A DNA stretch of 47,999 nucleotides from Membranihabitans marinus (GTDB lineage: Bacteria; Bacteroidota; Bacteroidia; Chitinophagales; Saprospiraceae), in contig NZ_JAJQYA010000039.1 of assembly GCF_021729155.1 (NCBI RefSeq), positions 2,872-50,870 on the forward strand, written 5' to 3'. The notes under the pieces were generated by a model. It worked only from the letters and a program-made list of their open reading frames with translations, searched no databases and was not told where the DNA came from. The translations under genes and the position numbers were made by a program. Shown piece after piece: positions 4,886 through 47,640 of this stretch (the stretch's first letter is position 1; every line of letters begins with the position of its first letter).

Positions 4886-5400
4886 ACGACTGAATAAAGT
4901 TACTCAAAGAGCAACCAGATGAACTAAATATGACCGAGCGAAGTGCGAAGCACCGATGGTCGTAAATCGACCTACGGAGAGAGAGCCGGAGCCACTGTGC
5001 TCCGGATGGGTATGCCAGGATGAAGGAGCCACGACCACTGTGTCGTGGGTGAACGACCAAAATGCAAAGCATCGTAGACCGTTAATCGGTCTACGGGGAG
5101 TGAAGTCGCAGCCACTGCGCTGCGACGAGATTCCATGAAATTCGCTATCGAATTACATTACTGTCACGCCGGAGCACAGTGGAAATCTGTATAAATCTTA
5201 TTGATACCTAGCCGGAGCACAGTGGCCAACCCACCCGAAACACGGAGGTTTCGGTTCCTTCACCCAATCGACATTTAGTCGATTGGATACTTCGTATTTC
5301 GTTCAGTCATCCTCATCCGATGGACATTTAGTCCATCGGGTTGCTCTATAGAGCAACTGCATTCGGTCACCCCGCCAGCGGGGGACATAAGAGATACTGG
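4886..5400. repeat. Cluster of dispersed multi-hairpin elements, both orientations
   Basis: Forward-oriented hairpins are H1 at 4943-4953 (GTGC/GCAC around GAA), H2 at 4958-4972 (loop TAAAT), H3 at 4986-5005 and 5029-5048 (loop CCACTGTG), H1 at 5062-5072 (loop AAA), H2 at 5073-5095 (loop TTAAT) and H3 at 5106-5125 (loop CCACTGCG). Inverted copies follow: a CCGAAAC hairpin at 5235-5254, H2 at 5264-5286 and 5317-5339 (loop ATTTA), and H1 at 5287-5297 and 5341-5356. A G+C-rich hairpin (CCCCGC/GCGGGG) sits at 5370-5383. Stems differ from copy to copy but remain complementary. The short open frames here are by-products of the repeats. Confidence 0.8.
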
Positions 5401-5518
5401 GCAAAAAGTGTGACAAATCCGGAATCATCATAATCTCCCCCCCATTCAAATTATTCAATCTGTTCATGTCCGTGATTTAACCTGAGGTATGGATGATTCC
5501 TGCCGACAGAAATGAATT

Positions 5519-5640
5519 CCTTCGTCCCTTCAGGACTTTTTTCGTGGAAGGCATCCTTTTTATAGGGTTTCACCCTATGCTAATAGACTATGTCCACTTC
5601 GACCAAGCTCAGTGCGCCGCTTTCAGGACTTTTCTCTTGT
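5519..5640. repeat. Intergenic repeat with TTTCAGGACTT and GGGTTTCACCC hairpins
   Basis: Contains a CTTTCAGGACTT word twice and a hairpin with stem AGGGT/ACCCT around TTC followed by ATGCTAA. The same words recur at about 23532-23620. Short repeats of this form are, from memory, frequent between genes in Bacteroidota. No coding potential is seen. Confidence 0.6.
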
Positions 5641-5731
5641 TATATTAAATTGGTTTGCTCAAAGCCACTGGCTAAAAACCTATCTAATTACGTTGCAGTC
5701 ATGCCGGACCACATAGATATTGGTGTAAAAT

Positions 5732-5765
5732 AAAAAAAGACTGTCCCCAACACGGAAACAGTCTT
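5732..5765 (-). terminator. Rho-independent terminator of the nqr operon
   Basis: On the minus strand an 8-bp stem AAGACTGT/ACAGTCTT is followed by a run of seven T. It starts 28 bp downstream of the nqrF stop codon at 5793. This is the clearest intrinsic terminator in the window. Confidence 0.85.
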
Positions 5766-5792
5766 CTATATTTATATCTAAAAGGCTTTTGC

Positions 5793-7112
5793 CTATCCAA
5801 AATCATCAAAGGCAATGTTCTCAGAAGGTACACCCAACTCATCAAACATCTTCATACATGCATCCAACATTGGTCCAGGTCCACAAAGATAGTACTCAAT
5901 TTCTTCTGGCTCTGGGTGATTTTTTAAATAATTTTCATACAAAGCATTGTGGATGAATCCCGTAAATCCATCTCCTTCTTTGTCATCGATAGATTTCTTA
6001 ACTTTCCAATTGTCTTCTTCCAAGGCTGCAGAAAGCGCAATATGATATTGGAAGTTATCGTATTCGTCTTCAATCTTTCTAAAGTGATCGGTATAGAACA
6101 ACTCTCTTTTGGATCGACCACCATACCAGTATGAAATCTTTCTATCTCTTGTTTTCTCTGTGTGAAACAGATGGAATAAGTGAGATCTCAACGGTGCCAT
6201 ACCAGCTCCCCCACCAATGTAAATCATTTCTTTTTTAGTATTTTTAATAAAGAACTCTCCATAAGGACCGGAAATAGTTACCTTATCTCCAGGTTTCTGA
6301 TTGAATACATAGGAAGAACAAAGTCCAGGATTAACGGCTTTCCAGTTATTAGTATTTCTATCCCATGGTGGAGTAGCAATACGAATATTTAACATCACTA
6401 TATTTCCCTCTGCTGGGTGATTGGCCATTGAATAAGCTCTAAATTGAGGCTCAGGATTATGCATTTTCAAATCCCACAATTTCCAAGTATCCCACTCGCT
6501 TTTAAATTTCTCTGGACCAGCCGGATCATCGGGCAAAGGTGCAATATCGAAATTTTTGAAATCGACGTCGATTTTTGGTACATCAATTTGAATATATCCT
6601 CCTGATTCGAAATCCAGTGTTTCTCCCTCAGGCAATTTCACTACAAATTCTTTGATAAAGGTCGCCACATTGTAATTGGATACCACTTCGCATTCCCACT
6701 TCTTGATACCAAATATCTCTTCGGGAATACCAATCTCCATGTTGTCACGCACTTTGACTTGACAAGCCAATCTCTCATGGTTAGCCGCTTCTTTCTTTGA
6801 CAAGTGATTCATTTCTGTAGGTAACACATCACCACCTCCTGTATACACCTTACACTTACACATGGCACAGGTACCACCACCTCCACAGGCCGAAGGCAAA
6901 AATATATTGCGATCAGATAAAGTAGACAAGAGTGAAGATCCAGGTTGAATTTCAATTGGATTTTCTTTGTCGCCATTGACAACAATAGAAACCAAACCCT
7001 GTGGCACCAATTTCTTTCTCGCAGCGATCAACATTATTGATAACAATAAAATGATGACGCTAAATACAATCACCGCATATACAATCGGCATAAAATCAAG
7101 CAAAATAAACAT
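5793..7112 (-). CDS. nqrF: Na+-translocating NADH:quinone reductase subunit F
   Basis: 439 residues. NqrF is the electron entry subunit: it oxidises cytoplasmic NADH with FAD and passes electrons to a 2Fe-2S centre. An N-terminal membrane anchor covers about residues 8-30. The ferredoxin-like domain has the cluster cysteines C76, C82 and C85 (CGGGGTCAMC), with C117 as the fourth. The FAD-binding RAYSMAN motif and a C-terminal NADH-binding domain (YIGGGAGMAP, YLCGPGPML) follow, ending in the family-typical AFDDFG. It is the last gene of the nqrABCDEF operon, 21 bp after nqrE, with a strong terminator downstream. Length and motifs are normal and all cofactor residues are present. Confidence 0.98.
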   Translation of the reverse strand: MFILLDFMPIVYAVIVFSVIILLLSIMLIAARKKLVPQGLVSIVVNGDKENPIEIQPGSSLLSTLSDRNIFLPSACGGGGTCAMCKCKVYTGGGDVLPTEMNHLSKKEAANHERLACQVKVRDNMEIGIPEEIFGIKKWECEVVSNYNVATFIKEFVVKLPEGETLDFESGGYIQIDVPKIDVDFKNFDIAPLPDDPAGPEKFKSEWDTWKLWDLKMHNPEPQFRAYSMANHPAEGNIVMLNIRIATPPWDRNTNNWKAVNPGLCSSYVFNQKPGDKVTISGPYGEFFIKNTKKEMIYIGGGAGMAPLRSHLFHLFHTEKTRDRKISYWYGGRSKRELFYTDHFRKIEDEYDNFQYHIALSAALEEDNWKVKKSIDDKEGDGFTGFIHNALYENYLKNHPEPEEIEYYLCGPGPMLDACMKMFDELGVPSENIAFDDFG

Positions 7113-7133
7113 GTATTATACTTTTAAAATTTC

Positions 7134-7733
7134 TTAAAATGCATTTGGATCAATACCGAGCAAACTCAAAAACGCTATCCCCATCAAACCAGTCAACAAG
7201 AAAGCCATACCTAGACCTCTCATTGGAGCGGGAACCGCTGAATAGCTCATTTTTTCTCGAATAGCAGCAATTGCAATGATTGCTAAAAACCATCCAAAAC
7301 CACCACCAAGACCAAAAGCCACAGACTCTCCAAAGTTATACTCACGAGTAACCATAAAGAGTGAACCTCCTAATATGGCACAGTTTACCGTAATCAACGG
7401 CAAGAATATACCTAGGGAATTATATAATGACGGTGAAAATTTTTCTATAACCATTTCGACCAATTGTACCATTGAAGCAATAACTGCTATAAATAATATC
7501 AATCTTAAAAATGTCAAATCAGTACCCAAAATACCATCGGGACTCAAAATATAATTGGCAATTAACCAGTTAACTGGCACGGTAAAACCCAATACAAAAA
7601 TTACTGCCAATCCCAATCCAAAAGCCGTTTTTACAGATTTGGACACAGCTAGATAAGAACACATACCCAAGAAATAGGATAAGATTAGATTCTCAATAAA
7701 AGCCGATTTGATGAAAATATTAATATACTCCAT
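7134..7733 (-). CDS. nqrE: Na+-translocating NADH:quinone reductase subunit E
   Basis: 199 residues, almost entirely membrane-embedded with six predicted helices. NqrE pairs with NqrD in an inverted-repeat arrangement and helps form the membrane part through which sodium passes. The start [20 protein letters not shown] and internal [16 protein letters not shown] are typical of the family. It also belongs to the NqrDE/RnfAE superfamily, but the operon with NqrA and NqrF decides for Nqr. It begins 20 bp after nqrD ends and is followed after 21 bp by nqrF. Confidence 0.97.
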
Positions 7734-7753
7734 AATATTCTTATTATTTATCG

Positions 7754-8488
7754 TTACGAAACGTCAATTAATTTCTTATTCCATGCTCTATGTACCCAAA
7801 TCAAACCAGCAATTAAAAACATAGCTGCCGATGAAATAACCATTAGGTTGTTATTTTGATACCATGAAAACCATGTACCGATTCCTTCTGTAGCTGTTGT
7901 ATTAATTAAATACTCAGGTGAGGCCCCAATTAACTTTAAAGTTCCAAAAGGACTTCCAGCAAACAATGTTCCCTTACCAAACAATTCTCTAAAAAAAGCA
8001 ATGATTAATAAGATAGCACCATAGCCCAATCCATTACCAATACCATCCAAGAACGATCTCCATGGTTTATTGGCCATTGCAAAAGCTTCCAAACGTCCCA
8101 TTACAATACAGTTGGTAATGATCAGTCCAATAAATACAGACAATTGTTTGTATACTGTATAATTCATTGCTTTTAAGGTAAGTTCCACAACAGTCACCAA
8201 AGCAGCTATTATCACTAATTGTACGATCATCCGTACAGCTTTGGGAATATAATTCCTCAACAATGAAGTCAATAAATTGGCGAATGCACATACGAAAACT
8301 ACTGCCACTGACATAACCAAAGAAGGATAAATCAATGTAGTCACGGCCAATGCAGAACATATACCCAATACTTGAACTGTTATTGGATTGTCGTCATTGA
8401 TAGGATCCGTTAATAATTTTCTTTCCTCCGCACCAAAAAGAGGTTTTTTCTCCTCTAAAGGCTTTTGTTTAACTACTGTTTCAGCCAT
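7754..8488 (-). CDS. nqrD: Na+-translocating NADH:quinone reductase subunit D
   Basis: 244 residues. It is a polytopic membrane subunit of the NQR complex, homologous to RnfE, with six helices. NqrD sequences are often about 210 residues. Here an N-terminal soluble segment of about 35 residues ([19 protein letters not shown]) precedes the conserved part, which starts near [20 protein letters not shown]. The conserved [27 protein letters not shown] region is present. It lies 4 bp after nqrC and 20 bp before nqrE, so the genes are probably co-transcribed and translationally coupled. Confidence 0.97.
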
Positions 8489-8492
8489 AATA

Positions 8493-9212
8493 TTAATTTT
8501 TCCCTAATGATTGCAAATAAGGTTCATAGTTTTTAATACCATCATATAGCATATCACTTACTCCGTTACAAGTAACGGTGGCACCAGATATACCATCTAC
8601 TTCATGGTCAGGCTCTTTAATCACGCCTTTAATTACACTTACAGACTGATAGTTTCCAGCCTCATCATATATCTTTTTCCCTTGAAATTGTTTGGGGAAT
8701 GCAGGATTATCTTTAATTTCTGCTCCCAAACCTGGTGTTTCACCTTGGTGATCAAAACTAGCACTTACGATGGTTGTTAGATCGTCTTCCACAGCGACAT
8801 TAGCCCAAATAGCGTCCCATAGACCTTGACCGCGAATACTCATGATATAATATTTTTTCCCACCGTTGGTATAAATATACATCGGATACTCTTGATCGGC
8901 TGCTGGTTTTGCCAATTCATCTTTTAATTTTATACTCTCAGCCAACTTACCGTCAACCGTTTCTCCTGCACTATTGATAACAAAAGCATTAATCTTATTT
9001 TCAAAGATTTCCTGTACTTCATCATCGGTTAATTGATCAACCGGTTTATCTAAAACCGGATTTACAGCTAACAAAACACTTCTTTTATTATATACCGCTT
9101 CATTTTTGTCATGAATAGGCTTTAAAACCGTTTGCATACCTGCTAGAACAAATGCCACAATCACTGTCATGATTAGGACAAATTTTACAATGTAGTTAGT
9201 TGAATCACGCAC
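8493..9212 (-). CDS. nqrC: Na+-translocating NADH:quinone reductase subunit C
   Basis: 239 residues. NqrC has one N-terminal membrane helix (about residues 8-28) and a periplasmic domain that carries a covalently bound FMN. The flavinylation motif is DGISGATVT at 206-214, with T212 the predicted attachment residue. In known systems the FMN is attached by an ApbE flavin transferase, which is not in this window. The start is a GTG, and the gene overlaps the nqrB end by 8 bp, which suggests translational coupling. Length is slightly under the usual 250-260. Confidence 0.97.
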   Translation of the reverse strand: MRDSTNYIVKFVLIMTVIVAFVLAGMQTVLKPIHDKNEAVYNKRSVLLAVNPVLDKPVDQLTDDEVQEIFENKINAFVINSAGETVDGKLAESIKLKDELAKPAADQEYPMYIYTNGGKKYYIMSIRGQGLWDAIWANVAVEDDLTTIVSASFDHQGETPGLGAEIKDNPAFPKQFQGKKIYDEAGNYQSVSVIKGVIKEPDHEVDGISGATVTCNGVSDMLYDGIKNYEPYLQSLGKN

Positions 9213-10455
9213 GTTTCAATCTTTTTTGTATGTTACCAAGAACAGTATAATGATCAATAAGAGGAGCAAAAGTATTTAAAAATAATATTGCCAACATCCA
9301 TCCTTCGGGATAAGCAGGGTTAATTACACGAATTATCATCCCTATCATCCCTATCATGATACCATAAATTACTTTTCCAAAATTTGTTGCAGAAGCTGTA
9401 ACAGGATCGGTTGCCATAAACACGATAGCAAACCAAAAACTTCCCATTAACAACTGATTATACCAAGGAACTGTCATAAACTCAGTCGCTCCCCATGCAT
9501 TGAATATCATGGACATAAGAGCCGCTCCAACGAGACCACTTAACATTATTCTCCAACTTCCTATTTTGGTTATTAAAAGAATAGCTGCACCAGCGATGAT
9601 CAATGGTTTTGAGGTTTCACCCACTGATCCTGGTATTGATCCCCACAACATTTGTGCACTGGAATAAACATCGGTTACTGCAGACCAACCTCCCTCATAG
9701 GCCAAAGCCAAAGGAGTAGCTCCAGTAAATCCATCGACAATGGTGGCCCCGGGATCAAACTGAGCCCAGCCAAACCATTCAAATATTGTATTACAGAACG
9801 AAGTCTGCCACCATCCGTAATCCGTTACAGCTCCTGGCATTATTTGATCAAATCCAGCAACCCATACTTGATCACCTGATATGGTAGTAGGATAAGCAAA
9901 GAATACAAAAGCACGGGCCAACAAAGCCACATTCCATATATTCATACCTGTTCCTCCAAAAGCTTCTTTACCTAAAAATACGGCAAATGCCACAGCCAAA
10001 CACAATATCCAAATCGGAAGATCTGGTGGCATAATTAATGGAATTAATGCTCCTGATACCAAGAATCCCTCTTCGATTGCGTGGCCTTTTTTCCATGCAA
10101 AATAAAACTCAATTCCAAGACCTACCAAGTGGGTCCAAATAAATAAGGGCAAGATTTTGGTCAAACCAAAAGCCAATTTCAAGTGAAATCCTTCAAAGAA
10201 AGATTCATACATTCCCAAAGCCACAAAATGTTGTTGACCGATATTATACATTCCGATCAAATAGCAGAATTGCAATGCTAAAACCACGATAACCATCGTC
10301 CTTTTTAGATCAATTCTATCTTTGATATGAACACCTCCATCAGCTGTCACTTCATTTGGAGCAAATAAGAATGTAAAAAGTCCATCATACAATGTATGAC
10401 CCAGACTCCCCTTCTTTGGTTCTAAACTTTTAACAAAATTCAGCAGTTTTTTCAT
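9205..10455 (-). CDS. nqrB: Na+-translocating NADH:quinone reductase subunit B
   Basis: 416 residues, a polytopic membrane subunit that carries a covalent FMN and, in characterised complexes, riboflavin near the sodium path. The flavinylation motif reads DGFTGAT (residues 241-247), making T247 the predicted FMN-bearing threonine. The region GKEAFGGTGMNIWNVALLARAF and the C-terminal ATDPVTASATNFGKVIYG are typical of the family. It starts with ATG 46 bp after nqrA ends. Related RnfD lacks the long N-terminal region MKKLLNFVKSLEPKKGSLGH seen here. Confidence 0.98.
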   Translation of the reverse strand: MKKLLNFVKSLEPKKGSLGHTLYDGLFTFLFAPNEVTADGGVHIKDRIDLKRTMVIVVLALQFCYLIGMYNIGQQHFVALGMYESFFEGFHLKLAFGLTKILPLFIWTHLVGLGIEFYFAWKKGHAIEEGFLVSGALIPLIMPPDLPIWILCLAVAFAVFLGKEAFGGTGMNIWNVALLARAFVFFAYPTTISGDQVWVAGFDQIMPGAVTDYGWWQTSFCNTIFEWFGWAQFDPGATIVDGFTGATPLALAYEGGWSAVTDVYSSAQMLWGSIPGSVGETSKPLIIAGAAILLITKIGSWRIMLSGLVGAALMSMIFNAWGATEFMTVPWYNQLLMGSFWFAIVFMATDPVTASATNFGKVIYGIMIGMIGMIIRVINPAYPEGWMLAILFLNTFAPLIDHYTVLGNIQKRLKRA

Positions 10456-10501
10456 GCTTTACGTTAATTTCTTCTGACTATTTGTAAAAACTAATTTATT
10501 C

Positions 10502-12115
10502 CTAAACTTCCTTCATCATAAAATCCAGCCCTTCGCGCAAAATCTTCTGCAACGGCTGCTTTGATGTACACACAAACTCGCATAAGGCCACATCCTCTTC
10601 TACCAACTCATAAATACCTAATCCTTCCATATTCTCTACATGTCTAGTGATTATAGACTTAAATAAATATTGAGGATAAGTGTCTACTGGCAGTACAGAT
10701 TCGTATTGACCTGTGACTACAAAAGCACGTTTCTCACCATGAGTATTGGTGTCTACTTGATATTTGAAATCCTTAAACAAGAAATTCGGATAGGTTCTAG
10801 ACGCAGAAGGTCTCATAGTTTGTGGCAATAACCAACCAAACATTTCATAATCATCTCCTTCATCGATGCAAGTCACTTGATCTTTATAAAAATCTAAGAA
10901 TGCATTGTCTTCGTTTTTAGCCAATCCATGGAGTACATTACCTGCTATTATACGTTTGCTTTTATCGGACAACTCTTCTCCGAGAATTTCCTTAAGATCA
11001 GCTCCACTATAACTTTGGTAGTAACCACCTTTTTCGGTAGCCAGACCTGCTATATTAAATACTCTTTCTGCTCTGTATTCATTCTTCAAGAACATATTAC
11101 CTAAAGTAATCAATTCTTGTATTCCAATTGTCCAAACAACATCACCAGCATTAATTGGCTTGATATGGTGGATTTGAATACCGACTAAACCAGCGGGATG
11201 AGGTCCATCAAAATAGTGAATATCTACACCGTGCATATGATCCAACTCTGCTGGAATAGCAGCTCCTTCACGACCGTCTAAACTCATATACACCTTGCCA
11301 TCAGTCAATTTATTCAACACATTGATACCTTCTTGAATAGCTTCAAATCGACCGTTTATTTTCATCGCCATATCTCCAGCCAAAGGGGCAGTATCAAAAC
11401 CAGAAATAAAAATATCTCTTGGCTCTTCATCTACTCCAGGTAGAATATTAAATGGACGCTGTTTAAACAATGGCCATCCGCCATTGGCTTTTAAAAACTC
11501 TCTTAATTCAGCTCGATCTACTTCATCTATATTGGGGCTATTCAAAGCCTTGAACTCTACATCTTTATCAGCCAATATAACCACTTGAGCGATAGAACGC
11601 TTAGGTCCTCGCTTCACTTCTACCAGTTCTCCACTCACTGGAGCCACAAAATTGACATTGGGATGACCTTTATCGTAAAACAAGGGTTGACCTGCTTTTA
11701 CTTCCTGTCCTACTTCTACAATCATTTTGGGGATAGGGGCAATATTGTTGAAGTTAAAAGGCATTACAGCATATCTACTGCTGTGAAACTTTTTGATTTC
11801 AGAACTACTCTCTCCTTTCAACTTAATGTTTAGACCTTTTTTCAAGACATGGTTCTTGGAAGCCAACAAATCTTCATCGACGACTTCGCCATTGGTGTGG
11901 TTTCCAACCTTAACTGATAATACTTGAACCATACTATTACCAACTACTGCCACAGCTCCCAATACTAAAGCCCCGAGAATTAAAATAACACCAATAGTAA
12001 CCACGTTACCATCTTTGCCTGTCTGGGCTAGAGCCATCTGTGAACTAAGCACAACGATAGATAGTGCCGATAACATTTTGGTAAATAACTGAACGAAAGA
12101 GGATACAACCTTCAT
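10502..12115 (-). CDS. nqrA: Na+-translocating NADH:quinone reductase subunit A with N-terminal membrane-anchor extension
   Basis: 537 residues from the ATG at 12115. A TTG two codons upstream would give 539, but the ATG is more likely. NqrA is normally a soluble, cytoplasm-facing subunit of about 450 residues. Here the family core begins near residue 90 (VLKKGLNIKLKG) and is preceded by about 88 extra residues. These include a signal-peptide-like stretch ending ALAQ near residue 31 and a strong hydrophobic helix at about 38-60 (VVTIGVILILGALVLGAVAV). The layout predicts an outside-in anchor leaving the core in the cytoplasm. Core features such as GFDTAPLAGDMA and MFGWLLPQTMRPSASR are present. 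It is first in the nqr operon, with a promoter 38 bp upstream. Confidence 0.95.
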   Translation of the reverse strand: MKVVSSFVQLFTKMLSALSIVVLSSQMALAQTGKDGNVVTIGVILILGALVLGAVAVVGNSMVQVLSVKVGNHTNGEVVDEDLLASKNHVLKKGLNIKLKGESSSEIKKFHSSRYAVMPFNFNNIAPIPKMIVEVGQEVKAGQPLFYDKGHPNVNFVAPVSGELVEVKRGPKRSIAQVVILADKDVEFKALNSPNIDEVDRAELREFLKANGGWPLFKQRPFNILPGVDEEPRDIFISGFDTAPLAGDMAMKINGRFEAIQEGINVLNKLTDGKVYMSLDGREGAAIPAELDHMHGVDIHYFDGPHPAGLVGIQIHHIKPINAGDVVWTIGIQELITLGNMFLKNEYRAERVFNIAGLATEKGGYYQSYSGADLKEILGEELSDKSKRIIAGNVLHGLAKNEDNAFLDFYKDQVTCIDEGDDYEMFGWLLPQTMRPSASRTYPNFLFKDFKYQVDTNTHGEKRAFVVTGQYESVLPVDTYPQYLFKSIITRHVENMEGLGIYELVEEDVALCEFVCTSKQPLQKILREGLDFMMKEV

Positions 12116-12152
12116 GAGCAATATTAAATTGACTATTTAATAAATTATTTCG

Positions 12153-12160
12153 CAAATATA
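12153..12160 (-). promoter_or_regulatory. Probable -7 element of the nqr operon promoter
   Basis: The minus strand reads TATATTTG, a perfect TAnnTTTG, 38 bp upstream of the nqrA ATG at 12115. No clear -33 TTTG is visible. It matches the elements before the beta-helix and porP genes. Confidence 0.5.
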
Positions 12161-12635: not shown

Positions 12636-12705
12636 ACGTAGAGACGCAATGCCTTGCGTCTCCCAAAACCACCTAATTGAGACGCAAGGCATTGCGTCTC
12701 TACGT
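12636..12705. repeat. Perfect 27-bp inverted repeat (GTAGAGACGCAATGCC family)
   Basis: Arms at 12636-12662 and 12679-12705 are perfect reverse complements with a 16-nt spacer. Each arm also contains its own dyad (GACGCAA/TTGCGTC around TGCC), so both a long cruciform and two short hairpins are possible. A related copy with a partly decayed left arm lies at 36289-36356. A truncated left end (GAGGACGTAGAGAC) recurs at 23701-23714. Confidence 0.9.
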
Positions 12706-12714
12706 TAAAACATG

Positions 12715-12800
12715 ACTGGCCCTTAAATCAATAGGATTTTAGCCACTGGCCTCGGTTCCTTCATCATTGACCGATTTACGGTCAATGGCTCTCAGAGCTT
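12715..12800 (-). repeat. Dispersed multi-hairpin element, inverted copy
   Basis: Contains the shared TTTTAGCCACTGGC segment near 12737-12750, then H2 at 12765-12787 (stem CATTGACCG/CGGTCAATG around ATTTA), H1 at 12788-12798 (GCTC/GAGC around TCA) and the linker TTCATTCAGTCAT. The order is the mirror image of the forward copies at 23.3-23.9 kb. The sequence to 12915 is a more decayed continuation without a gene. Confidence 0.75.
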
Positions 12801-12915
12801 CATTCAGTCATAATCAGTTATATCCGGTCTACTTTAGATCGATTAACTTTCACCTTGATAATTCGCGATAATATTTCCCTGCTTAATCGACCTCATAAAC
12901 GGCCGATAGATTCAT

Positions 12916-23222: not shown

Positions 23223-23339
23223 GATATCTTGTATATAGACGGTGTATTATTCTTGACCACGGATTCGATAAGGCCTAATATATTAGGACAACGATAATGG
23301 TGTTGGCCAATGCTGAATTCTGAACCCTAAATGTAGTTC

Positions 23340-23910
23340 TTTTTTTTATAATAGTTGGATGACCGAATGAAGTTGCTCGAAGAGCAACCAAAGGTCGTAA
23401 ATCGACCTTTGATGAGGGAACCGAGGCCTCCCGGCCGAGGCGTGACTGCCCCGTAATTCGAAAGATTTTTAGCCACTGGCTTCGGCGTGACTGCAATGTA
23501 AATCGTGAGGATTTCCCCTTAATCTTTTATGTCGTCCTTTCAGGACTTCTTTTCAAGATGACAATTAATTCATAGGGTTTCACCCTATGCTGACATATTT
23601 CGTCCTTTCAGGACTTTTTTATCAAGCTGATTTGGCGTAATTACACTTCAATTCGGCAGCGAATTTTCACTGCGTATACGCGTGATATTTTAATGCATTT
23701 GAGGACGTAGAGACATGACCGAATGAAGTTGCTCGAAGAGCAACCAAAGGTCGTAAATCGACCTTTGATGAGGATGACTGAGCGTAGTTGCTCTTTAGAG
23801 CAACCATTGATCCTTAATGGATCAATGGCGAGGATGACCGAATGAAGCTCGAAGAGCCAAATGCCTTAAATAGGCATTTGATGAGGGAACCGGAGCCACT
23901 GTGCTCCGGC
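23340..23910 (+). repeat. Tandem multi-hairpin elements, forward orientation (best-preserved cluster)
   Basis: Four H1-H2 pairs share the leader GACCGAATGAAG (or a close variant) and the linker GATGAGG. The pairs are 23372-23386 with 23388-23410, 23729-23743 with 23745-23767, 23788-23803 with 23804-23828, and 23847-23857 with 23858-23880. A closing H3 lies at 23890-23909. H2 stems are CAAAGGTCG (twice), CCATTGATCC and CAAATGCCT, each perfectly paired with its own partner around TAAAT or TTAAT. The H3 position after the first pair (23420-23440) is broken and not self-complementary. A repeat of the 5519-5640 type is embedded at about 23532-23620. Confidence 0.85.
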
Positions 23911-24165
23911 GTGACTGCCCTGTAAATTGAAAGATTTTTAGCCACTGCACTCCGGCATGACTGCCCTGTAATTCGAAAGATTTTTAGCTCCGGCGTGAAT
24001 GCCCTGAAAATTGTTAGGTATTTTACCACTGGCTCCGGCGTAGTATCAATAAAATTTCATGACAATCTTTACTGCGCTCCGGCGTGACTGCCCTGTAAAT
24101 TGTTAGGTATTTTACCACCTCGCTCCGGCGTGATTACCCCGTAATTCGAAAGATTGCCGTTAATT
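23885..24165 (+). repeat. Degenerate tandem unit, CTCCGGCGTGACTGCCC family
   Basis: About five imperfect copies of a 45-65-bp unit. The unit has CTCCGGCGTGACTGCCC, then TGTAAATTG or CGTAATTCG, then AAAGATTTTTAGCCACTG or TTAGGTATTTTACCACT. The core recurs once at about 23437-23485, near 12720-12750 and, inverted, near 5655-5710. It follows the H3 hairpin directly, so it may be the tail of the multi-hairpin element. No reading frame stands out. Confidence 0.7.
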
Positions 24166-33720: not shown

Positions 33721-33723
33721 AAT

Positions 33724-36073: not shown

Positions 36074-36084
36074 TTCCCGAATGA

Positions 36085-36226
36085 TGACTGAACATGACCG
36101 AATGCAGTTGCACGAAGTGCAACCCAATTGATATTTAATGGATTGGGTACTTCGTACTTCATTAGGTCATATAATGTATTCGGTCGTACTAATAATATCC
36201 CCCGCTGGCGGGGGTGCCTGAAAGGC
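36085..36226 (+). repeat. Dispersed multi-hairpin element plus G+C-rich hairpins
   Basis: After the leader GACCGAATGCAG come H1 at 36107-36123 (GTTGCAC/GTGCAAC around GAA), H2 at 36123-36147 (outer stem CCCAAT/ATTGGG, inner part decayed, loop ATTTA) and an inverted H1 at 36147-36157 (GTAC/GTAC around TTC). A strong hairpin with arms CCCCCGC/GCGGGGG is at 36199-36214 and a short GCC-TGAAA-GGC at 36216-36226. It lies between two convergent genes, so it could act as a transcript end. Confidence 0.75.
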
Positions 36227-36288: not shown

Positions 36289-36356
36289 CGTAGAGACGCA
36301 ATGCCTTGCGACTTAATTAGGTTGTTTCGGGAGACGCAAGGCATTGCGTCTCTACG
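36289..36356. repeat. Second copy of the GTAGAGACGCAATGCC inverted repeat
   Basis: The left arm at 36289-36310 pairs over 22 bp with the right arm at 36331-36356. It matches the 12636-12705 element in the arms, but the left arm diverges after TTGCG and the spacer is different. Confidence 0.85.
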
Positions 36357-36360
36357 ATAT

Positions 36361-38001: not shown

Positions 38002-38005
38002 ATCT

Positions 38006-38213: not shown

Positions 38214-38251
38214 TTAAAAATAATTCTGTCGCAGTCCGTAGACTGCAACAG
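38214..38251 (-). terminator. Probable terminator of the macroglobulin gene
   Basis: On the minus strand an 11-bp stem (CTGTTGCAGTC with GACTGCGACAG, one mismatch, loop TACG) is followed by AATTATTTTT. It begins 13 bp after the stop codon at 38264. This suggests that the DUF1593 gene has its own promoter. Confidence 0.65.
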
Positions 38252-38263
38252 TTTCAACCATTA

Positions 38264-41200: not shown

Positions 41201-44065
41201 TTGATCCTTATTAATATCAACTACAAATGGAGAATGCATTAGATCGAAATCTTCATCATCATAACCAAACAAATATTTTTGGTCAACTGATTTTCCGTCA
41301 TCTTGAACCACTTCGATTTTATAATAACCCGGATTTTTGATCATGGCATCAATCATCAAATCCAAACTTCCATCCAGATCAATTCCCTCTTGATACACCA
41401 CAGTTTCGATCTCCCATAGCTCCCATGTTTCCATACTGGGTTGGGGAACAGGCATTATATGGGAATCGTATTTTTCCAGTGACACTATAGGTTGATCGGG
41501 ATTGGCCCATAATCTAGGTACCATATATTTCTCTGGAAGTCTAAGTGAAGACACTACGATTTTTCCACTCCACGGGGTTGGATTACCCAATCCATCTTTG
41601 GCCTTTAATTTTATAAGTCCACCACTATTCAATTTCACTTGATCACTGACATCAATTGACAGATACTTTTTATTTTCATCCACTGGTGTCAAAACCGATG
41701 TCTCTTGGATTTCTCCTGAGAGCGCGGTTGCAGATATTGAAAAATCATAATTATACGATGACCAACCATCATTTTTTAAGGGTATAATGGGTTCAAATTG
41801 GAATTCAAATCGCCCATTATCATCAGAATTCACCTCTGTACTAAACAACAAAATGGGTTTTTCATTTCCGGGATAATAAAACCATCGTTGCTGTTGCTTT
41901 AAATAAACCTCAATCTTCACCTTTCCTTCTTGTATAGGAAATCCCGCATACGTTTTAAGATATCCGAAACCATTGACCGACTTTGGAGTCATTTTAATAT
42001 CTTCTGCGTTAAAATGGATCTCGTAATTAGGTCTTTTATATTCTTCTATTAAAATCGATTTTTGCCCTGACAAATTACTAGACAATGTCCAGTTCCCCTT
42101 TAATCCCTGATTGGGAATGGGAATAATAGCGGTGTAAGAACCCCATTCATCGGTGGTCAAACTCTTTTTCCAAACTTCTTGACCATTGGCATCTCTCAAA
42201 TACAAATCGATGGCCTTATTTTTTAATAAATCACTTGTCAAACGATTTGAAGAGACGACTAGCCCCTTTACAAATATTTTTTGACCGGGTTGATAGATGG
42301 CTCTATCCGTATACATTACCGTTTTTGTATCTTCGTAGTTTTCAGAAGGATACCTTCTTCCGGTATAATATCTAGGACTGAAATAGATATCTTTTTTACG
42401 CACTACTTTTACGTAGGTAGATTTGCCCAATCCTTTGTCATTGATAATAAATCTGCCACCATCGACCTTGGAATGCATCATGGGCACTGGTCGCCCTAGG
42501 TCACCATAATTGGATTCGAATAATGCAAGTTCAGCATTCTTTATAGCCGATCCTGAAGTCCGATCCAATATGTGCATCTCTTTTTTCTCTTCCAATTGGA
42601 TATCGATAACATTGATATTGGATATTTGAAATAACTGACAACCAGCAATGCGAAATCCGGAGGATTCGGTATAATAGTATAAACCATATTGGCCATAAGA
42701 TAGATTTTTATCCAATATATATTCACTGGAATGACTGTCATAGTCGCCAAGGTTATTGAGTTTCACGGCTTTCTCCCAAATGACTTTCTTGCCTTTTAGA
42801 TCACTTATTATTTGATTTTCATTATTCCTTCTCTGATAATTATATTGCACAAATTCCTCTGGTGTCAACTTAAATAGCTGAAAATTAACATCATCAATAT
42901 TTCGATAATTAATATTGAATAACACCGAAAGTTTTTTGGGATAGGCGTACTCCATTTCTATCTGAAGTTCTTTGGCCAAAATACTCTTTAACACCTGCTG
43001 CAATGCAGCTACATCTGAAGGCAAGGCAGTATTAGAAAACAAAGAAAGTCCCGAATCAACTATAGACTTAGCGGTTATATAATCTCCTTTACCCTGAAAC
43101 AAAATTGCTTTTAGATAATAGGCTTTTAATATATGAGGCTCTTCTTTATAGGTAGTCATTAATCCATCCAACAAGTTGACATATGGAGTATCACTATTAG
43201 TAGCGAATTGACCATGAACTAGCTCTGCTCGTTGTAAGACAATCTCTAGATATACCTTGTAGTCTTTTCGGCTGAGGTGAAATTGCTCCCAATCGCTATA
43301 AGCTTGAAGTAAATCGATGTCTGCGGAAGGATATTTGTTGTCGGATTCAAGAACAGATTGCAGATCTTCACTGAAATAAGAGGCTTTTCCATCTTCTCCC
43401 ATGGAAATTTCAGACGGAATACCGGAATACCGTTTATTTTGTAAAAATTGAATGTTTCTATCCATTAATAAATCGTATAGGGTAGGTAACCAGGTATAAT
43501 CTAATGCTTCGTCATCGGGATAAACAGATTGGAATTTAGAAGATTCAATGGTTTTTAGTCCTTGAGGCTGCACACTCCTCATGTACAGAGATTTCATCTT
43601 ATCGATAAAGTTTGCCTCAGACCACAGCGACAGATCATCGCTCGAAATCGATGAAGTATCCGTACGATTACTGATTTTATATCGATGTCTTTCAAAATAC
43701 AGACTATACATCTCGGCTGTGTAACTATCCAAAATAGCTTGCAAAATGGAAGAAGTTGGTTTCTTAGATTCTACTGCCTGGATCATGCTTAGCAGAGCTT
43801 CATCATCTATATAATAGCTACTATTGACCATGACAATTAGAGATTTTATCACAGCGGGCACATTCTGAGACTGAATAGCTTTATCAAAAATCGCTTGAGA
43901 CAGTGTATAACGACTTCCTTGTTTGCCTTCTTTGGATAATTCCTCCAGTTTTTGCCAATCAGAAGAAAAAACATCGTCCCAATGCAAGTCATCTGTTTGC
44001 TGGGCCATGAGTGAACAAAGGGAGAACATCATGATGGAGGAAATATATATTTTTACTAATTTCAT
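38264..44065 (-). CDS. Bacterial alpha-2-macroglobulin family protein without thioester motif
   Basis: 1933 residues with a signal peptide (IYISSIMMFSLCSLMAQQ). After an N-terminal helical part of about 400 residues come macroglobulin domains. MG2 contains YTDRAIYQPGQKIFVKGLVV near residue 590. A Pro/Glu/Gly-rich linker (SPPSPEVEGGEEGGKR) precedes the segment SENLLFVGKLHTAEDGSISI and the A2M core. The alpha/alpha barrel spans about 1400-1700. Bacterial A2Ms are periplasmic protease traps. At the usual position of the CxEQ thioester motif this protein has TTDQ (1419-1422), so it should not trap by covalent bond. It lies upstream of the DUF1593 gene, with its own terminator. Confidence 0.93.
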   Translation of the reverse strand: MKLVKIYISSIMMFSLCSLMAQQTDDLHWDDVFSSDWQKLEELSKEGKQGSRYTLSQAIFDKAIQSQNVPAVIKSLIVMVNSSYYIDDEALLSMIQAVESKKPTSSILQAILDSYTAEMYSLYFERHRYKISNRTDTSSISSDDLSLWSEANFIDKMKSLYMRSVQPQGLKTIESSKFQSVYPDDEALDYTWLPTLYDLLMDRNIQFLQNKRYSGIPSEISMGEDGKASYFSEDLQSVLESDNKYPSADIDLLQAYSDWEQFHLSRKDYKVYLEIVLQRAELVHGQFATNSDTPYVNLLDGLMTTYKEEPHILKAYYLKAILFQGKGDYITAKSIVDSGLSLFSNTALPSDVAALQQVLKSILAKELQIEMEYAYPKKLSVLFNINYRNIDDVNFQLFKLTPEEFVQYNYQRRNNENQIISDLKGKKVIWEKAVKLNNLGDYDSHSSEYILDKNLSYGQYGLYYYTESSGFRIAGCQLFQISNINVIDIQLEEKKEMHILDRTSGSAIKNAELALFESNYGDLGRPVPMMHSKVDGGRFIINDKGLGKSTYVKVVRKKDIYFSPRYYTGRRYPSENYEDTKTVMYTDRAIYQPGQKIFVKGLVVSSNRLTSDLLKNKAIDLYLRDANGQEVWKKSLTTDEWGSYTAIIPIPNQGLKGNWTLSSNLSGQKSILIEEYKRPNYEIHFNAEDIKMTPKSVNGFGYLKTYAGFPIQEGKVKIEVYLKQQQRWFYYPGNEKPILLFSTEVNSDDNGRFEFQFEPIIPLKNDGWSSYNYDFSISATALSGEIQETSVLTPVDENKKYLSIDVSDQVKLNSGGLIKLKAKDGLGNPTPWSGKIVVSSLRLPEKYMVPRLWANPDQPIVSLEKYDSHIMPVPQPSMETWELWEIETVVYQEGIDLDGSLDLMIDAMIKNPGYYKIEVVQDDGKSVDQKYLFGYDDEDFDLMHSPFVVDINKDQYQPGDEVELRFYTHKKLKQLLLVYVRPSGEEKIISLKGNQTYKIKLRASDLGGIPIKVIGQLYNRTKIESYFIDIPWREKSLKIIRNDGLDSLDVNKDYSLDFNIVDVYGQGLPSEVAIAIYDASLDAYKANEWTTENYFFRKFNSYIHANILSTNLAQVIGFENNYWDNPIDVPRIHKPQLPNIGLQYPVRGTMYMAKSMSRNDDGGLMEVASEAAATDMVASPPSPEVEGGEEGGKRSDFSENLLFVGKLHTAEDGSISIPFSTNDKIGRWKVLVLAHDTALATATYSFDLITKKDVYVESYLPEYMRQGDLVNVRYTIFNTTSKPINGVLELSQMGMWPDSSVHHKMDSQSYQIPANGSKSYSFAIEADAEAKDALRLVAKLMNTSGHQWDEVEHYIDILPSKENIISGDMVVLKPGETYRFNQLITTDSKIKQVKLRIIDNMYVELLKSLPYLDNPQPRTTDQMLRNYLYATLGQYIGQKIPGFEELYQSWKSLGQLKGRLGDESMAKYQPIIQTPWVKQNASMEEQMQMMALYFDDNHMRNIISQNFDKWMVAVNPDGGFPWISGWPSDPYITLRLLASLAKIESLNIDNNVEPRIIENAISYLDKVNFERWTTLTKADPERKDKIGISFLNYFEVRSQYMDEYEIQDIHQDFWDSIKKVIYAEWTSVDWMQQVQIGKSAHYLHDHEFSLKIAESFVDNAIQSKKLGTYWRYNFRGSQANYLYLHAGIMDLLNLNSISQLNEGAVHWIVVQKMTNDWHENPAVFDLMLAAMKATPQTLTMPGNVVLQSAHKTYSDSNRGGGSIFDVATRDLSTLHAVNLGGQPVWLGIQWIEEVQPEDVVIVEDSPLDIKKSVIIPSSRDTIVMGDKIMVQLLLETDRDLDYVYVSDPLVPGLDEGIAFSGFKTINGLSLYQTFDPDKAMFFIRHLPKGKHVLEYELGVVRSGQFVMPRSKIQSFYTPEISGHDQWRPRLEIK

Positions 44066-44283
44066 AGACTGGGTTTTGACTTATATACCAAATGCATTTA
44101 GTATTATACGTATTACATTCTAAAAGATCAAGATAATTATATAAAAAACGAAATTATCACATAGGATAATATAGCCATTTTAATGGATATTATATCTTGA
44201 CACAATCACCTTTAAGATGGAATGAAACAAGAAAAAAATCAAAATAAAAACACAATTAACAAGATGATAACAATATAGTGTTT

Positions 44284-45330
44284 TTAATAGAATCTCTGTA
44301 TATCGACTTCTGTGGGTAATTCTTGATTTTTAAATACAAATTGATAAAATACATTGGCGAAATAAGGAATTAAACTGGTTCCTTTTGAGCCAAATCCATT
44401 AAATATAGCAATAGAATGGTTGCTAGGATGATACCCCATAATTGGTCGACGATCTTCGGTGGCAGGTCTAAAAGCAGCTAGATGACTCCGTACTTCGTAG
44501 GGTGATTTCATCATCAAGTCGAGATGTTTTATTAAGTATTTTTTGCCTCCAGCTGTAGGTTCTTCGTTGTCACATTCCCATGTATTATAACTTCCCACCC
44601 AAAATTCTTCCCCCTCAGGAATAAGAAATAATCGCTGTTTCAGAATAGAATCCAGAGGTAATTGAGGACTGGACAATTTGAGAACCTCCCCTTTATTTAT
44701 ATTAAAGCCAGGCCATGTAAACCCCCTACTATCAGTCGAATGTGCTCCTCGAGCTAATATAACTTTATTTGTAATATAATCTTTGTAACGGTGAGAGGAT
44801 TGACTTTCATCTAGAGATTCAATCTCAAAATTATCTTCATACCATATACCTTTTGATTTCAAAAAATCTATACCTCGATCCAAAAAAGTAATCGTGTCTA
44901 ATTGATATCCTTTAAAAACATAGCCCAAATCAGGGAAGGAAGTCAAAGTCTGAAACAAGGTCAATTCATCTGCTGTCATTGGTCTACATAATTCGCCATA
45001 ATCACTCAGTTTGGCATCGAGATCATTGACCAATCGATGATCGGTAATCGCCCGGTATATATCAATGGACTTAAAAAAACGAGAGTTAAATATTTTCTCC
45101 CAATACTGATATTCTGACACAAAAACAGGCTGCAATTCATCGTATAGCCAAGTCTTGACAAAGCGCCGTCCAGTAATGGGATTGATCAAACCAGAGGCAA
45201 TCCTCGAAGACGAATGTTCTTTGTATTTATCTATAACAATAAAAGAGAGTCCCTCTTTATAAAATTTTAGCGCAAGATGTAGACCAGCTAATCCTCCACC
45301 GACTATGATGACATCAATGTTATTCTTCAC
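44284..45330 (-). CDS. FAD-dependent oxidoreductase of the DAO (glycine/D-amino acid oxidase) type
   Basis: 348 residues. The FAD-binding motif GGGLAG (11-16) lies in DVIIVGGGLAGLHLALKFY, followed by DKYKEHSSSRIASGLINPITGRRFVKTW, which is typical of a Bacteroidota subgroup related to MnmC C-domain and ThiO-like oxidases. A conserved C-terminal segment, HLAAFRPATEDRRPIMGYHP and FNGFGSKGTSLIPYFA, closes the flavin site. The start is a GTG inside the end of the DUF983 gene (11-bp overlap), so the two are translationally coupled. The substrate is unknown; amine oxidation of a small amino acid or a modified nucleoside is possible. Confidence 0.88.
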   Translation of the reverse strand: MKNNIDVIIVGGGLAGLHLALKFYKEGLSFIVIDKYKEHSSSRIASGLINPITGRRFVKTWLYDELQPVFVSEYQYWEKIFNSRFFKSIDIYRAITDHRLVNDLDAKLSDYGELCRPMTADELTLFQTLTSFPDLGYVFKGYQLDTITFLDRGIDFLKSKGIWYEDNFEIESLDESQSSHRYKDYITNKVILARGAHSTDSRGFTWPGFNINKGEVLKLSSPQLPLDSILKQRLFLIPEGEEFWVGSYNTWECDNEEPTAGGKKYLIKHLDLMMKSPYEVRSHLAAFRPATEDRRPIMGYHPSNHSIAIFNGFGSKGTSLIPYFANVFYQFVFKNQELPTEVDIQRFY

Positions 45331-45694
45331 TCGTGGATAATATCTGTGGATCGTATTTTACATAGATGTGAATCCATACTGATCGAGCCAATCTGAAAAA
45401 ATAGACAAAAGTAAGTGCTCCAACAGCAATAATAATCATCATAGCCTTGTTAAATTCCATGCCCATGACGAAAATCAAAATGGCACCAATGGCAAAGAAC
45501 AACCAGGCCGTCATACCATAGCCAATAAACATTGCTCCATAGAAAAATCCGGGCTCAGGAAAATAATTTTGATTACATGTAGGACATCTTTCAGGCATAT
45601 CGAAAGATTTGGATAGACTAAAAGGCTGCACAAACAACTTGCCTTTTCTACATTTTGGGCAGGTCATTTTAAATATAGAACGTAATAATCCCAT
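45320..45694 (-). CDS. DUF983 family membrane protein
   Basis: 124 residues. Two CxxC pairs (C12/C15 in TCPKCRKGKL and C37/C40 in CPTCNQNY) form a probable zinc ribbon. EPGFFYGAMFIGYGMTAW, a strong signature of the family, and two membrane helices (about 53-78 and 83-102) follow. DUF983 proteins are of unknown function and are sometimes found near cytochrome oxidase genes, which is not the case here. It is the first gene of a two-gene unit with the FAD oxidoreductase. Confidence 0.92.
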   Translation of the reverse strand: MGLLRSIFKMTCPKCRKGKLFVQPFSLSKSFDMPERCPTCNQNYFPEPGFFYGAMFIGYGMTAWLFFAIGAILIFVMGMEFNKAMMIIIAVGALTFVYFFRLARSVWIHIYVKYDPQILSTSEE

Positions 45695-45730
45695 TATTAT
45701 TAATTAATTAAACAGTAAAAAATTGATATG

Positions 45731-45758
45731 CAAAATTAACTATTTAAGCCGATTCAAA
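45731..45758 (-). promoter_or_regulatory. Probable promoter of the DUF983-oxidoreductase unit
   Basis: The minus strand carries TTTG at 45758-45755 and TAATTTTG (exact TAnnTTTG) at 45738-45731, separated by 16 bp. This is slightly shorter than the usual spacing. The -7 element lies 36 bp before the ATG at 45694. Confidence 0.5.
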
Positions 45759-45816
45759 TAGTAATACAGTATAAATATTCTATATTGATAAGAAATAGAC
45801 CAGCATTTAGGTAAAT

Positions 45817-47259
45817 ATGAAAAAAATCAAAAAAGTACTAATTGCCAATAGAGGAGAAATTGTATCAAGAATTATCTCAACCTGTCGTAAAATGGGCATC
45901 ACTTCCGTCGCTGTATACACAGAAACCGATGCGGAATTGCCCTATGTCGGTGAAGCTGATGAGAAATATTTGTTGCAGGGCAATAGTATCGCCGACACCT
46001 ATTTGTCTATAGAGACCATTATATCTATTGCTGTACTCTGTAATGCCGATGCCATACACCCCGGATATGGATTTTTAAGCGAGAATCCAAGATTTGCGAC
46101 TGCTATCGAGGAAGCCGGATTAATGTTCATTGGTCCATCGGCTCAAAGTATGGAATGGATGGGCAATAAAATTTCAGCTAAAAAATTGGCTCTTGATGCC
46201 GAAGTCCCATTAGTACCTGGTGATGCTTCTACCATAATCCATCATCAACACGCACGAAATGTGGCCAATCAGATCGGCTATCCAGTACTCATAAAAGCAG
46301 CAGCTGGAGGTGGCGGCAAAGGTATGAGGAAGGCGAATGATGAAACTGAATTAATCCATTACATTGATTTGGTAAAAAGTGAAGCAGAAAACGCATTCGG
46401 CAATGGTGAAATATTCATTGAAAAATTTATTGAAAATCCGAAACACATAGAGATTCAAATATTTGGTGACTGTGATGGCAATATTGTCCATCTATACGAA
46501 AGGGATTGCAGCATACAACGAAGACATCAAAAAGTAATAGAAGAAGCACCCGCAATGGTTCTGTCCAAGGATACAAAAGCTAAATTGTATAAATCTGCTA
46601 TTGAACTAGCCAGAAAATGTAATTATTTCAGTAGTGGAACCGTAGAATTCTTAGTAGATAAATATCAAAATTTCTACTTTTTAGAAATGAATACCAGATT
46701 ACAGGTTGAACATCCAGTCACAGAAATGATCACCGGTATTGACTTAGTAGAATGGCAAATAAAAGTGGCTGAAGGAAAACCTCTTCCTCTGTCTCAGGAA
46801 GAAATATCTTCAACCGGTCATGCCATTCAATTGAGAATCTATGCAGAAGATTATACTGATGGCTTTACACCATCACCAGGGGAAATTATACATTTTGAAA
46901 TTCCAACTTCTGACAGGGTTCGCTTAGACAGTGGATTCAAATCCGGTAATTCGGTTTCTCTTTATTACGATCCAATGATAGCCAAACTCATAGTTTGGGG
47001 TAATACGAGAGCAGAAGCCATATCGACCATGCAAAAAACCATAGCCTCCAGTCGAATCCAAGGCATAATGACAACTATGGCCTTTGGAGATTATGTACTG
47101 ACGGATGAAGAGTTTATCACTGGAGAATACACCATAGAATACATATCATCTGTCTCCGTAGATCAACTTACGGCTAAAGAAAAGCAATTGGGTAAAATAG
47201 CAGCTTTATTCTGCCAGGAATACCTAGCCAACCACAATAAAAAGGCTTTTTTAGGTTGA
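45817..47259 (+). CDS. Biotin carboxylase subunit of an acyl-CoA carboxylase (AccC-like)
   Basis: 480 residues. It carboxylates the biotin of a carrier protein using ATP and bicarbonate. Start KKVLIANRGEIVSRII, ATP-grasp glycine loop GGGGKGM at about 165-171, ERDCSIQRRHQKVIEEAPA, and the catalytic strand EMNTRLQVEHPVTEMITGID (about 290-309) are all intact, followed by the C-terminal carboxylase domain (LRIYAEDY, GFTPSPG, YYDPMIAKLIVWG). No carrier (BCCP) or carboxyltransferase gene is in the window. It may be AccC of fatty-acid synthesis or a subunit of a propionyl- or methylcrotonyl-CoA carboxylase. Sequence alone does not decide, so I give no symbol. Confidence 0.93.
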   Translation: MKKIKKVLIANRGEIVSRIISTCRKMGITSVAVYTETDAELPYVGEADEKYLLQGNSIADTYLSIETIISIAVLCNADAIHPGYGFLSENPRFATAIEEAGLMFIGPSAQSMEWMGNKISAKKLALDAEVPLVPGDASTIIHHQHARNVANQIGYPVLIKAAAGGGGKGMRKANDETELIHYIDLVKSEAENAFGNGEIFIEKFIENPKHIEIQIFGDCDGNIVHLYERDCSIQRRHQKVIEEAPAMVLSKDTKAKLYKSAIELARKCNYFSSGTVEFLVDKYQNFYFLEMNTRLQVEHPVTEMITGIDLVEWQIKVAEGKPLPLSQEEISSTGHAIQLRIYAEDYTDGFTPSPGEIIHFEIPTSDRVRLDSGFKSGNSVSLYYDPMIAKLIVWGNTRAEAISTMQKTIASSRIQGIMTTMAFGDYVLTDEEFITGEYTIEYISSVSVDQLTAKEKQLGKIAALFCQEYLANHNKKAFLG

Positions 47260-47370
47260 GTAATGCCCTAATTATCTGATTCAAGCGATGGATTTTATGA
47301 TTCAGCAGTGAATTAATTGTGTCGTAATCTTTGTCATACCATCTGTCATTGATTGAATTCAAATACAATT

Positions 47371-47445
47371 GTAAGTGACCAAGCAACTATGTCTTTGTGC
47401 TATAATTAATCGAGATGAAGCTTTTGCAAAATGAACAGCTTAATT
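47371..47445. repeat. 75-bp direct repeat, copy 1
   Basis: Matches 47924-47998 at 67 of 75 positions without gaps (starts GTAAGTGACCAAGCAACTA, ends AACAGCTTAATT). Six of the eight differences are transitions, the mark of old copies under drift. It may be an edge of a mobile or repeat element. No gene is seen here. Confidence 0.8.
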
Positions 47446-47487
47446 TATTGGTTTTATCATAGAATACGAGGTCATGCTCATTCACAC

Positions 47488-47640
47488 CCACGACACTATG
47501 GTCGTGGCTCCCTCATCAGATGAACATTTAGTTCATCGACTTGCTCTTTCCTCACCCACCCAATGCGCAGAGGCATAGGTGCCTTCATCCTATGTAACTT
47601 CATTCAGTTATATTCGGTTGTGAACTTCATTCAGTCATGT
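47488..47640 (-). repeat. Dispersed multi-hairpin element, inverted copy
   Basis: H3 at 47488-47507 (stem CCACGAC/GTCGTGG, loop ACTATG), linker CTCATCA, H2 at 47519-47537 (stem GATGAAC/GTTCATC around ATTTA), a decayed H1 (CTTGCTCTTT) and the leader in inverted form (CTTCATTCAGTTATATTCGG, then TTCATTCAGTCATGTTCGG). The order is that of the 5.2-kb and 12.7-kb inverted copies. Confidence 0.75.

Follow-up and report, generated by a model that had tools for sequence, protein, structure and literature searches.

Intergenic repeats of Membranihabitans marinus with changing stems and a predicted three-way-junction fold

How can a set of intergenic hairpins stay paired from copy to copy when the letters of their stems change? 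The question is raised by a window of 47,999 nucleotides from Membranihabitans marinus (Bacteroidota, Saprospiraceae; contig NZ_JAJQYA010000039.1, positions 2,872 to 50,870), in which an initial annotation described an element recurring at five places: a leader, hairpins H1 and H2, a linker and hairpin H3, with stems that differ between copies yet pair with themselves. The recurring element is real and larger than was noted there: units lie between genes throughout the genome, with 174 matches to covariance model R1 (short P2, the first hairpin) and 164 to R2 (long P2), 150 candidates being scored in each. Our best explanation is a family of short palindromic repeats that are mobile and non-autonomous and that must fold for new copies to arise, a reading that we consider on balance probable, though modestly so.

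Beyond the earlier account, the leader also pairs with the linker. We call this outer helix P1, and H1 and H2 become P2 and P3. P1 consists of two 2-bp steps with a near-invariant tandem G.A between them (leader TGA-CC-GA-AT against linker AT-GA-GG). Because it closes around P2 and P3, each unit is predicted to be a three-way junction of P1, a 3-nt joint, P2 and P3. The triplet 5′ of P2 is GAA in 71 of 168 units, AAA in 39, GTA in 30, GCA in 12, ATA in 9 and something else in 7. Hairpin H3 and then a GGGTGGG tail often follow 3′ of the unit; among the 96 units in which the linker continues with GA, a hairpin of at least 5 bp is present in 76, CCGAGG on both sides (tandem G.A) in 8, and neither in 12.

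The outer helix, which the earlier annotation had overlooked, appears to be the best evidence that the fold is maintained. Anchoring on P2 and P3 alone left 129 units for comparison, 92 of them distinct. Leader positions 9, 8, 5 and 4 are Watson-Crick partners of linker positions 1, 2, 5 and 6 in 122, 122, 118 and 116 of these, where column composition predicts 64, 76, 65 and 99.5, and GA/GA stands between the steps in 124. Where GA follows the linker (n=96) the pattern extends: 95 units show a further tandem G.A, and 90 a pair of type T-A or C-G. In the alignment counts P1 is paired in 92.7% and 96.2%, a share reached by none of 500 shuffles. The two strands, 37-45 nt apart, share more information (0.68, 0.63) than do dinucleotides 2 nt apart (0.11, 0.06); judged from these alignments, the dependence tracks pairing, not distance. 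In a genome from another genus of the family (G015), where 24 copies were found by a pattern with fixed P2 and P3, P1 occurs in three paired forms (6, 9 and 5 copies), so that both steps are paired in 20 copies and not in the other 4.

The inner stems behave in the same way. Anchored on the leader, P3 loop and linker only, and with repeated contexts removed, 168 units remained. P3 has nine of nine Watson-Crick pairs in 136 of these, one exception in 27 and three or more in 5, two of which look misparsed; 47 distinct arm pairs are represented, and P2 is perfect in 147. The statement that stems differ yet self-pair is thus borne out, and mismatched copies, far from being as common as paired ones, are greatly outnumbered by them. 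In the half of the sample (84 units) from loci picked without a covariance model, P3 is perfect in 72. Sixteen of the 18 P3 arm positions carry 0.6-1.8 bits of variability, whereas most positions of the loop and the G.A carry 0-0.4, with the reservation that the constancy of loop, leader and linker is partly imposed because all three served as anchors.

Across genera the pairing persists. Alignment A4 has 28 rows, namely 17 of the 24 rows from M. marinus (G000) in alignment A3, preselected for perfect P2 and P3, and 11 from G001, G002 and G005; G015, whose P2 is 3 bp long, was omitted for that reason. Of its cells, 96.4% are paired, and double changes occur at 15 of the 18 pairs. None of 500 shuffles matched the paired cells or the covariation score, and three matched the number of double-change pairs. 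The 55 initial units had been chosen for perfect stems, and 51 of them were used for the models (two units each of loci L025 and L034 were left out), which introduces a bias for P2 and P3 and none for P1. The least biased counts are those for P3 (n=168 and n=84) and P1 (n=129), from loci fetched around leader or model matches rather than from the whole genome. Since copies are related, all copy statistics are non-independent.

How widely is the element distributed? In the 5,396,799 bases of the genome we count 40 occurrences of the leader GACCGAATGAAG and none of its reversed control. A longer pattern, TGACYGAAYGWAGTTGCYC, occurs 56 times there and in none of 59 relatives. Nine single matches to it in other taxa, from a collection of 84,980 genomes, were rejected as relatives, all lacking the P2 partner arm and looking like chance, as was one match in a viral contig, where no P2 partner was visible by eye. 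The covariance-model search that the initial annotation had proposed for related genomes was also productive: R2 matched G001 and G002, of the same genus, 22 and 8 times, and G005 and G015, of the same family, once and 24 times; the remaining 55 relatives gave no match with an E value of 0.01 or below. A cross-genus model, R3, matched 10 of 150 family genomes, the source genome included, and 9 of 112 genera; phylum-wide, at weak settings with 14 candidates scored per genome, it matched one of 395, the source genome itself. These R3 counts are low, because G015, found by R2, escaped it. By reading, units of other genera have the identical order with different stems, and in some GAA/GAA or GA/GGA replaces GA/GA.

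In the genome of M. marinus the units form 87 clusters, of which 7 overlap open reading frame (ORF) calls; in our judgment three of these are genes in which the leader match is false, and four are spurious ORFs called across arrays. Many short, palindromic and mostly intergenic copies are also what characterizes REP and REPIN repeats. Of the 76 clusters amenable to scoring, 49 have a 3′ end as the nearest gene end, and 144 of 209 units point away from the nearest gene end, a bias that may be trivial because the arrays have long right tails. Units also lie near the ends of contigs C4, C20, C29, C33, C54, C55 and C62; it is therefore likely that the repeats interrupt the assembly and that the true copy number is at least as high as counted.

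The arrangement of neighboring copies argues for mobility. Among 103 leader-to-leader spacings of at most 70 nt, the values 10 (14 cases), 17 (23), 25 (6), 38 (4), 42 (4), 44-46 (12), 53 (14) and 59-60 (19) account for all but 7, and they correspond to the end of the P1 5′ strand, the P2 tip, the P3 tip and the whole unit. Inner elements sit inside outer units. At 4886..5048 (+) of the window an outer unit (leader at 4886, P2, and the 5′ half of P3 to 4929) carries at its P3 tip an inner element, 4930..5019 (+), with leader 4930-4942, P2 4943-4953, imperfect P3 arms CGATGGTCG/CGACCTACG (4954-4976), H3 and the tail GGATGGGTATGCCAGG; behind this tail the outer unit resumes with its P1 3′ strand, ATGAAGGAGCC (5020-5030), followed by its H3. 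We rejected the idea that such half-units at a P3 tip are mere deletions: in the cases read, the outer P1 strand sits behind the inner element. Loci L013 and L030 hold the same inner element within different outer units. A palindrome that we call R is filled between GTAGAGAC and TTGCGTCT by seven copies, and four more begin there. At positions 1056-2313 of locus L030 (contig C43) an array splits a tyrosine-recombinase-like gene, whose homologue aligns over residues 208-317 and 328-374 on either side; the first leader begins within about 6 nt of the alignment break. Adjacent array units never share a P3 arm (0 of 18), although only 1.3 such cases were expected. Finally, the oxidoreductase gene beside window position 36084 has orthologues in G001 and G002 (65% and 71% identity), downstream of which no unit was seen by eye or, within the loci retrieved, by R3 at E up to 0.1.

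Pairing and propagation go together. Of 21 perfect P3 classes (136 copies), 19 have at least two copies, against 4 of 26 imperfect classes (32 copies; Fisher 2e-7), and duplication of the whole unit is seen in 22 of 95 perfect classes and none of 32 imperfect ones (p 0.001). Such a skew is expected if only folding copies multiply and inserted copies decay, and also if copying repairs the arms. In the second case template switching at replication would copy one arm onto the other, turning one-sided mutations into two-sided ones in a single step, and hairpin jumps would build nested arrays without a dedicated transposase. The restarts at hairpin tips and helix ends are in keeping with this. Perfect P3 classes one base pair apart form ten pairs, five of them separated by a transversion, which cannot pass through G.U; and 22 copy pairs with at least 97% identity over the 70 nt downstream show 47 two-sided against 17 one-sided stem changes. 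Two-sided differences could, however, also come from recombinational exchange of whole hairpins; simple arm correction is harder for P1, whose strands lie far apart with two hairpins between them, and a conserved G.A core in a layout shared across genera calls for recognition beyond a mutational process. G015, in which no Y1 transposase is matched (see below), counts in favor of arm rewriting, which we nevertheless regard as unlikely. The initial annotation had offered selection on structure or the rewriting of palindromes; the evidence strongly supports that the fold is maintained but does not separate the two mechanisms.

For the mobile repeat favored here, the sequence itself shows the junction form, the intergenic dispersal, the nesting at structural boundaries and the location inside other repeats, and to these we add a proposal for its spread. 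One strand would fold while single-stranded, at replication or as an intermediate, and since the G.A core is conserved on one strand, that strand is taken as the folded one. A putative trans-acting factor would recognize the element by its fold, its G.A core and its loops and not by the letters of its stems, so that folding copies would be propagated and inserted copies would later decay; stem sequences would drift because only pairing is tested. The hairpin tips of existing palindromes would be preferred targets.

Several observations weigh against this proposal. P1 is weak: minimum-energy folds show it in none of the four window units tested as DNA and in one of the four as RNA, and its support comes from covariation. 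Some imperfect P1 classes do propagate, AC-GA-GC/GC-GA-GA having 7 copies. The site at 36 kb is not a strict empty site in the related species, because the flanks cannot be aligned between species. The right end of the element is not sharp; the loss of target sequence varies, from about 8-13 nt of the outer unit in nested cases (measured by eye) to about 10 codons in the recombinase-like gene; and, of the terminal inverted repeats and target-site duplication that would mark a MITE of a DDE transposon, no duplication was seen by eye at filled R palindromes or at the split gene, the right end being undefined. With variable loss and no visible duplication, this does not look like textbook transposition. 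The nature of the imperfect pairs and the search for a transposase also count against it, and each bears on a rival explanation.

Wobble pairs are tolerated in RNA and, less so, in DNA. Among non-Watson-Crick cells G.U outnumbers A.C by 34 to 17 (p 0.024), and by 29 to 15 among distinct classes (p 0.049); by helix the figures are 12/12 in P1, 15/2 in P2 and 7/3 in P3. We take this as mild evidence for wobble tolerance, and it would also fit an RNA fold. An early view that the absence of a wobble preference rules out RNA was discarded, as the near-equal counts became 34 to 17 after misparsed units were removed and P2 was added. The units might then be a structured RNA, such as a 3′-UTR element, mRNA stabilizer or sRNA, multiplied across the genome while selection acts on the RNA fold of each copy; the tandem G.A core on a single strand and the prevalence of nearest 3′ gene ends agree with this. 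Against it, 22 of 26 imperfect stem classes are singletons, as decaying insertions would be, the orthologues in two congeneric species have no unit nearby, and the orientation to the nearest gene is mixed. H3 was dismissed as an intrinsic terminator, no terminator-like site being present there in the one stretch checked (23300-24100). Scanning Rfam with the whole window at gathering scores, and with 23300-24100 at E values as high as 1, gave nothing for the unit; the only hit, Acido-Lenti-1, lies outside the units. From sequence alone, a structured RNA appears distinctly improbable.

Returning to mobile DNA, what would move it? The initial annotation suggested looking for a REP-associated transposase, and one RAYT-like gene was indeed found, although below the family cut-off (NF047646, 71.5 bits against 80) and without directly flanking units. 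It is one of three Y1 matches in G000, the others being two IS200-like genes; none is directly flanked by units, and one has a unit about 0.65 kb off. For the RAYT-like gene the nearest unit is 2.3 kb away on one side, and none is present within the 1.4 kb examined on the other; no transposase is tied to the element. G015, with its 24 matched copies, has no Y1 match and no detectable Y1/RAYT transposase (430 contigs, 97% complete). Both results belong with the points against the proposal. In the other eight genomes the presence of Y1 says little, because carriers and non-carriers alike have Y1 genes. A GTAG/CGTC tetranucleotide at the foot of the palindrome is not conserved; the junction reads GTA in 30 of 168 units. 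That these are REP/REPIN repeats moved by RAYT, a Y1 HUH transposase, is thus suggested by copy number, intergenic placement, palindromic form and the single RAYT-like gene, but it sits poorly with the unflanked gene, the missing GTAG head and the G015 genome, and we hold it to be very improbable. RAYT was rejected as the likely mover on the grounds of the sub-threshold score, the absence of direct flanking units and the lack of Y1 in G015. Left as candidate movers are a trans-acting factor distinct from Y1 and the replication and repair of the host. A further version of the latter, selfish DNA spread by its fold alone without a dedicated transposase, would have host replication or repair copy folded junctions into palindrome tips and rewrite their arms, so that pairing and not sequence is inherited; this we think unlikely.

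In the window, R3 reports 11 stretches at E up to 0.1, which cover all five places, the model being partly trained on these copies. The order from leader to H3 is complete at two of the places (4.93-5.37 kb and 23.36-23.91 kb, with at least one clean copy each), and the other three are partial. At the first, the nested pair is followed by a unit at 5049..5101 (+; P1 AC-GA-CC / GG-GA-GT, P2 ATGC, P3 CGTAGACCG), a unit with H3 at 5258..5310 (-; P2 ATAC-GAA-GTAT, P3 CCAATCGAC) and another at 5311..5370 (-; P2 GTTGCTC-TATA-GAGCAAC, P3 CCGATGGAC). A single unit lies at 12759..12811 (-; P2 GCTC-TGA-GAGC, P3 CATTGACCG), its H3 degenerate to a 3-bp remnant. The unit at 23359..23417 (+) has its leader at 23360-23371, P2 at 23372-23388, P3 at 23389-23411 and linker at 23412-23417. 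It precedes a tandem array of three, all on the + strand: unit 1 (23715..23773) lies 3′ of the left part of the R palindrome (GTAGAGAC|ATGACC), unit 2 (23774..23833) has P1 CT-GA-GC / GC-GA-GG and P3 CCATTGATCC, and unit 3 (23834..23909) has P3 CAAATGCCT and H3 GAACCGGAGCCACTGTGCTCCGG. Directly downstream of the oxidoreductase gene, at 36084..36170 (+), a truncated leader and a mirrored palindrome (leader-H1-H2-H1′-leader′) lack linker and H3. In such variants (36094-36170 here; 1368-1436 of locus L034) the leader and its mirror image pair almost fully, and a four-armed palindrome replaces the G.A three-way junction. The copy at 47485..47638 (-; to 47.64 kb) is rearranged, with three closely spaced leaders, a GGGTGGG tail and then a remnant of P3, linker and H3.

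Other repeats accompany the units. Direct repeats of about 45 bp (CTCCGGCGTGACTGCCCTGTAA...TTTTTAGCCACTG) at 23910-24100 carry the H3 loop and 3′ arm without the 5′ arm. An Acido-Lenti-1 RNA (RF01687, 47 bits) is located at 23571-23615, with related hairpins near 5500-5640; this type of repeat also occurs in fetched loci, in a few of which it carries the element (AGCCGTGGGT|GACCG). A second dispersed palindrome, GTAGAGACGCAATGCCTTGCGTCTC, is present at 12638-12705 and 36290-36356 and is filled by the element in other loci. The PorP/SprF and Na+-translocating NADH reductase genes of the window are in keeping with Bacteroidota.

Which known systems does the element resemble? In integron attC sites a folded single strand is recognized and the stem sequence is free to vary, and recognition of the present fold would work alike; however, the integron integrase TIGR02249 is above cut-off in none of five carrier genomes, and no cassette genes were noticed between units. 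BOX, ERIC and cyanobacterial small dispersed repeats are short, structured, and modular or nested, and we know of no sequence or layout that they have in common with this element. Mitochondrial double-hairpin and repetitive hairpin-forming elements (PMC2800124, and the Allomyces elements as cited there) are likewise dispersed consecutive hairpins, thought to be mobile and often limited to related species; in the sponge elements of that paper, as far as its account of them goes, stems are conserved and loops variable, whereas here the reverse holds, in a bacterial host and with an outer P1.

Closest in lifestyle are the REP/REPIN repeats and their RAYT (PMC3116915, PMC3733652, PMC2817692), which those accounts portray as short intergenic palindromes in hundreds of copies and in clusters, with compensatory stem changes stated for REPIN hairpins in the first of the three papers. 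The suggestion that no known class has this layout held in the Rfam and literature searches (no three-way-junction repeat of this layout turned up, most subscription journals being outside coverage), but stem covariation by itself was already known: compensatory changes in REPIN hairpins are described (PMC3116915), as are REP sub-families with alternative complementary stem residues, GT pairs included (PMC3733652). The present element differs from the repeats treated in these papers in its three-way junction with a tandem-G.A outer helix, the absence of a constant GTAG/CGTC head, its nested insertions at helix tips and ends, and a carrier without a detectable Y1 gene. We do not class it as REP because two defining features, the head tetranucleotide and a repeat-flanked RAYT, were looked for and not found, and we place it as a new variant among the short palindromic mobile repeats, closest in lifestyle to REP/REPIN.

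With no detectable Y1 transposase in one carrier, one must ask how palindromes of this kind spread at all, a point that to our knowledge is likewise unsettled for REPs. Nested arrays give the relative order of insertions into hairpin tips. Few repeats show so plainly that the shape of a nucleic acid, and not its sequence, is kept between copies, and a single genome that offers about twenty perfect stem types among hundreds of copies, together with the stems of other genera, serves as a mutagenesis experiment done by nature, one that probes what the machinery of copying would read.

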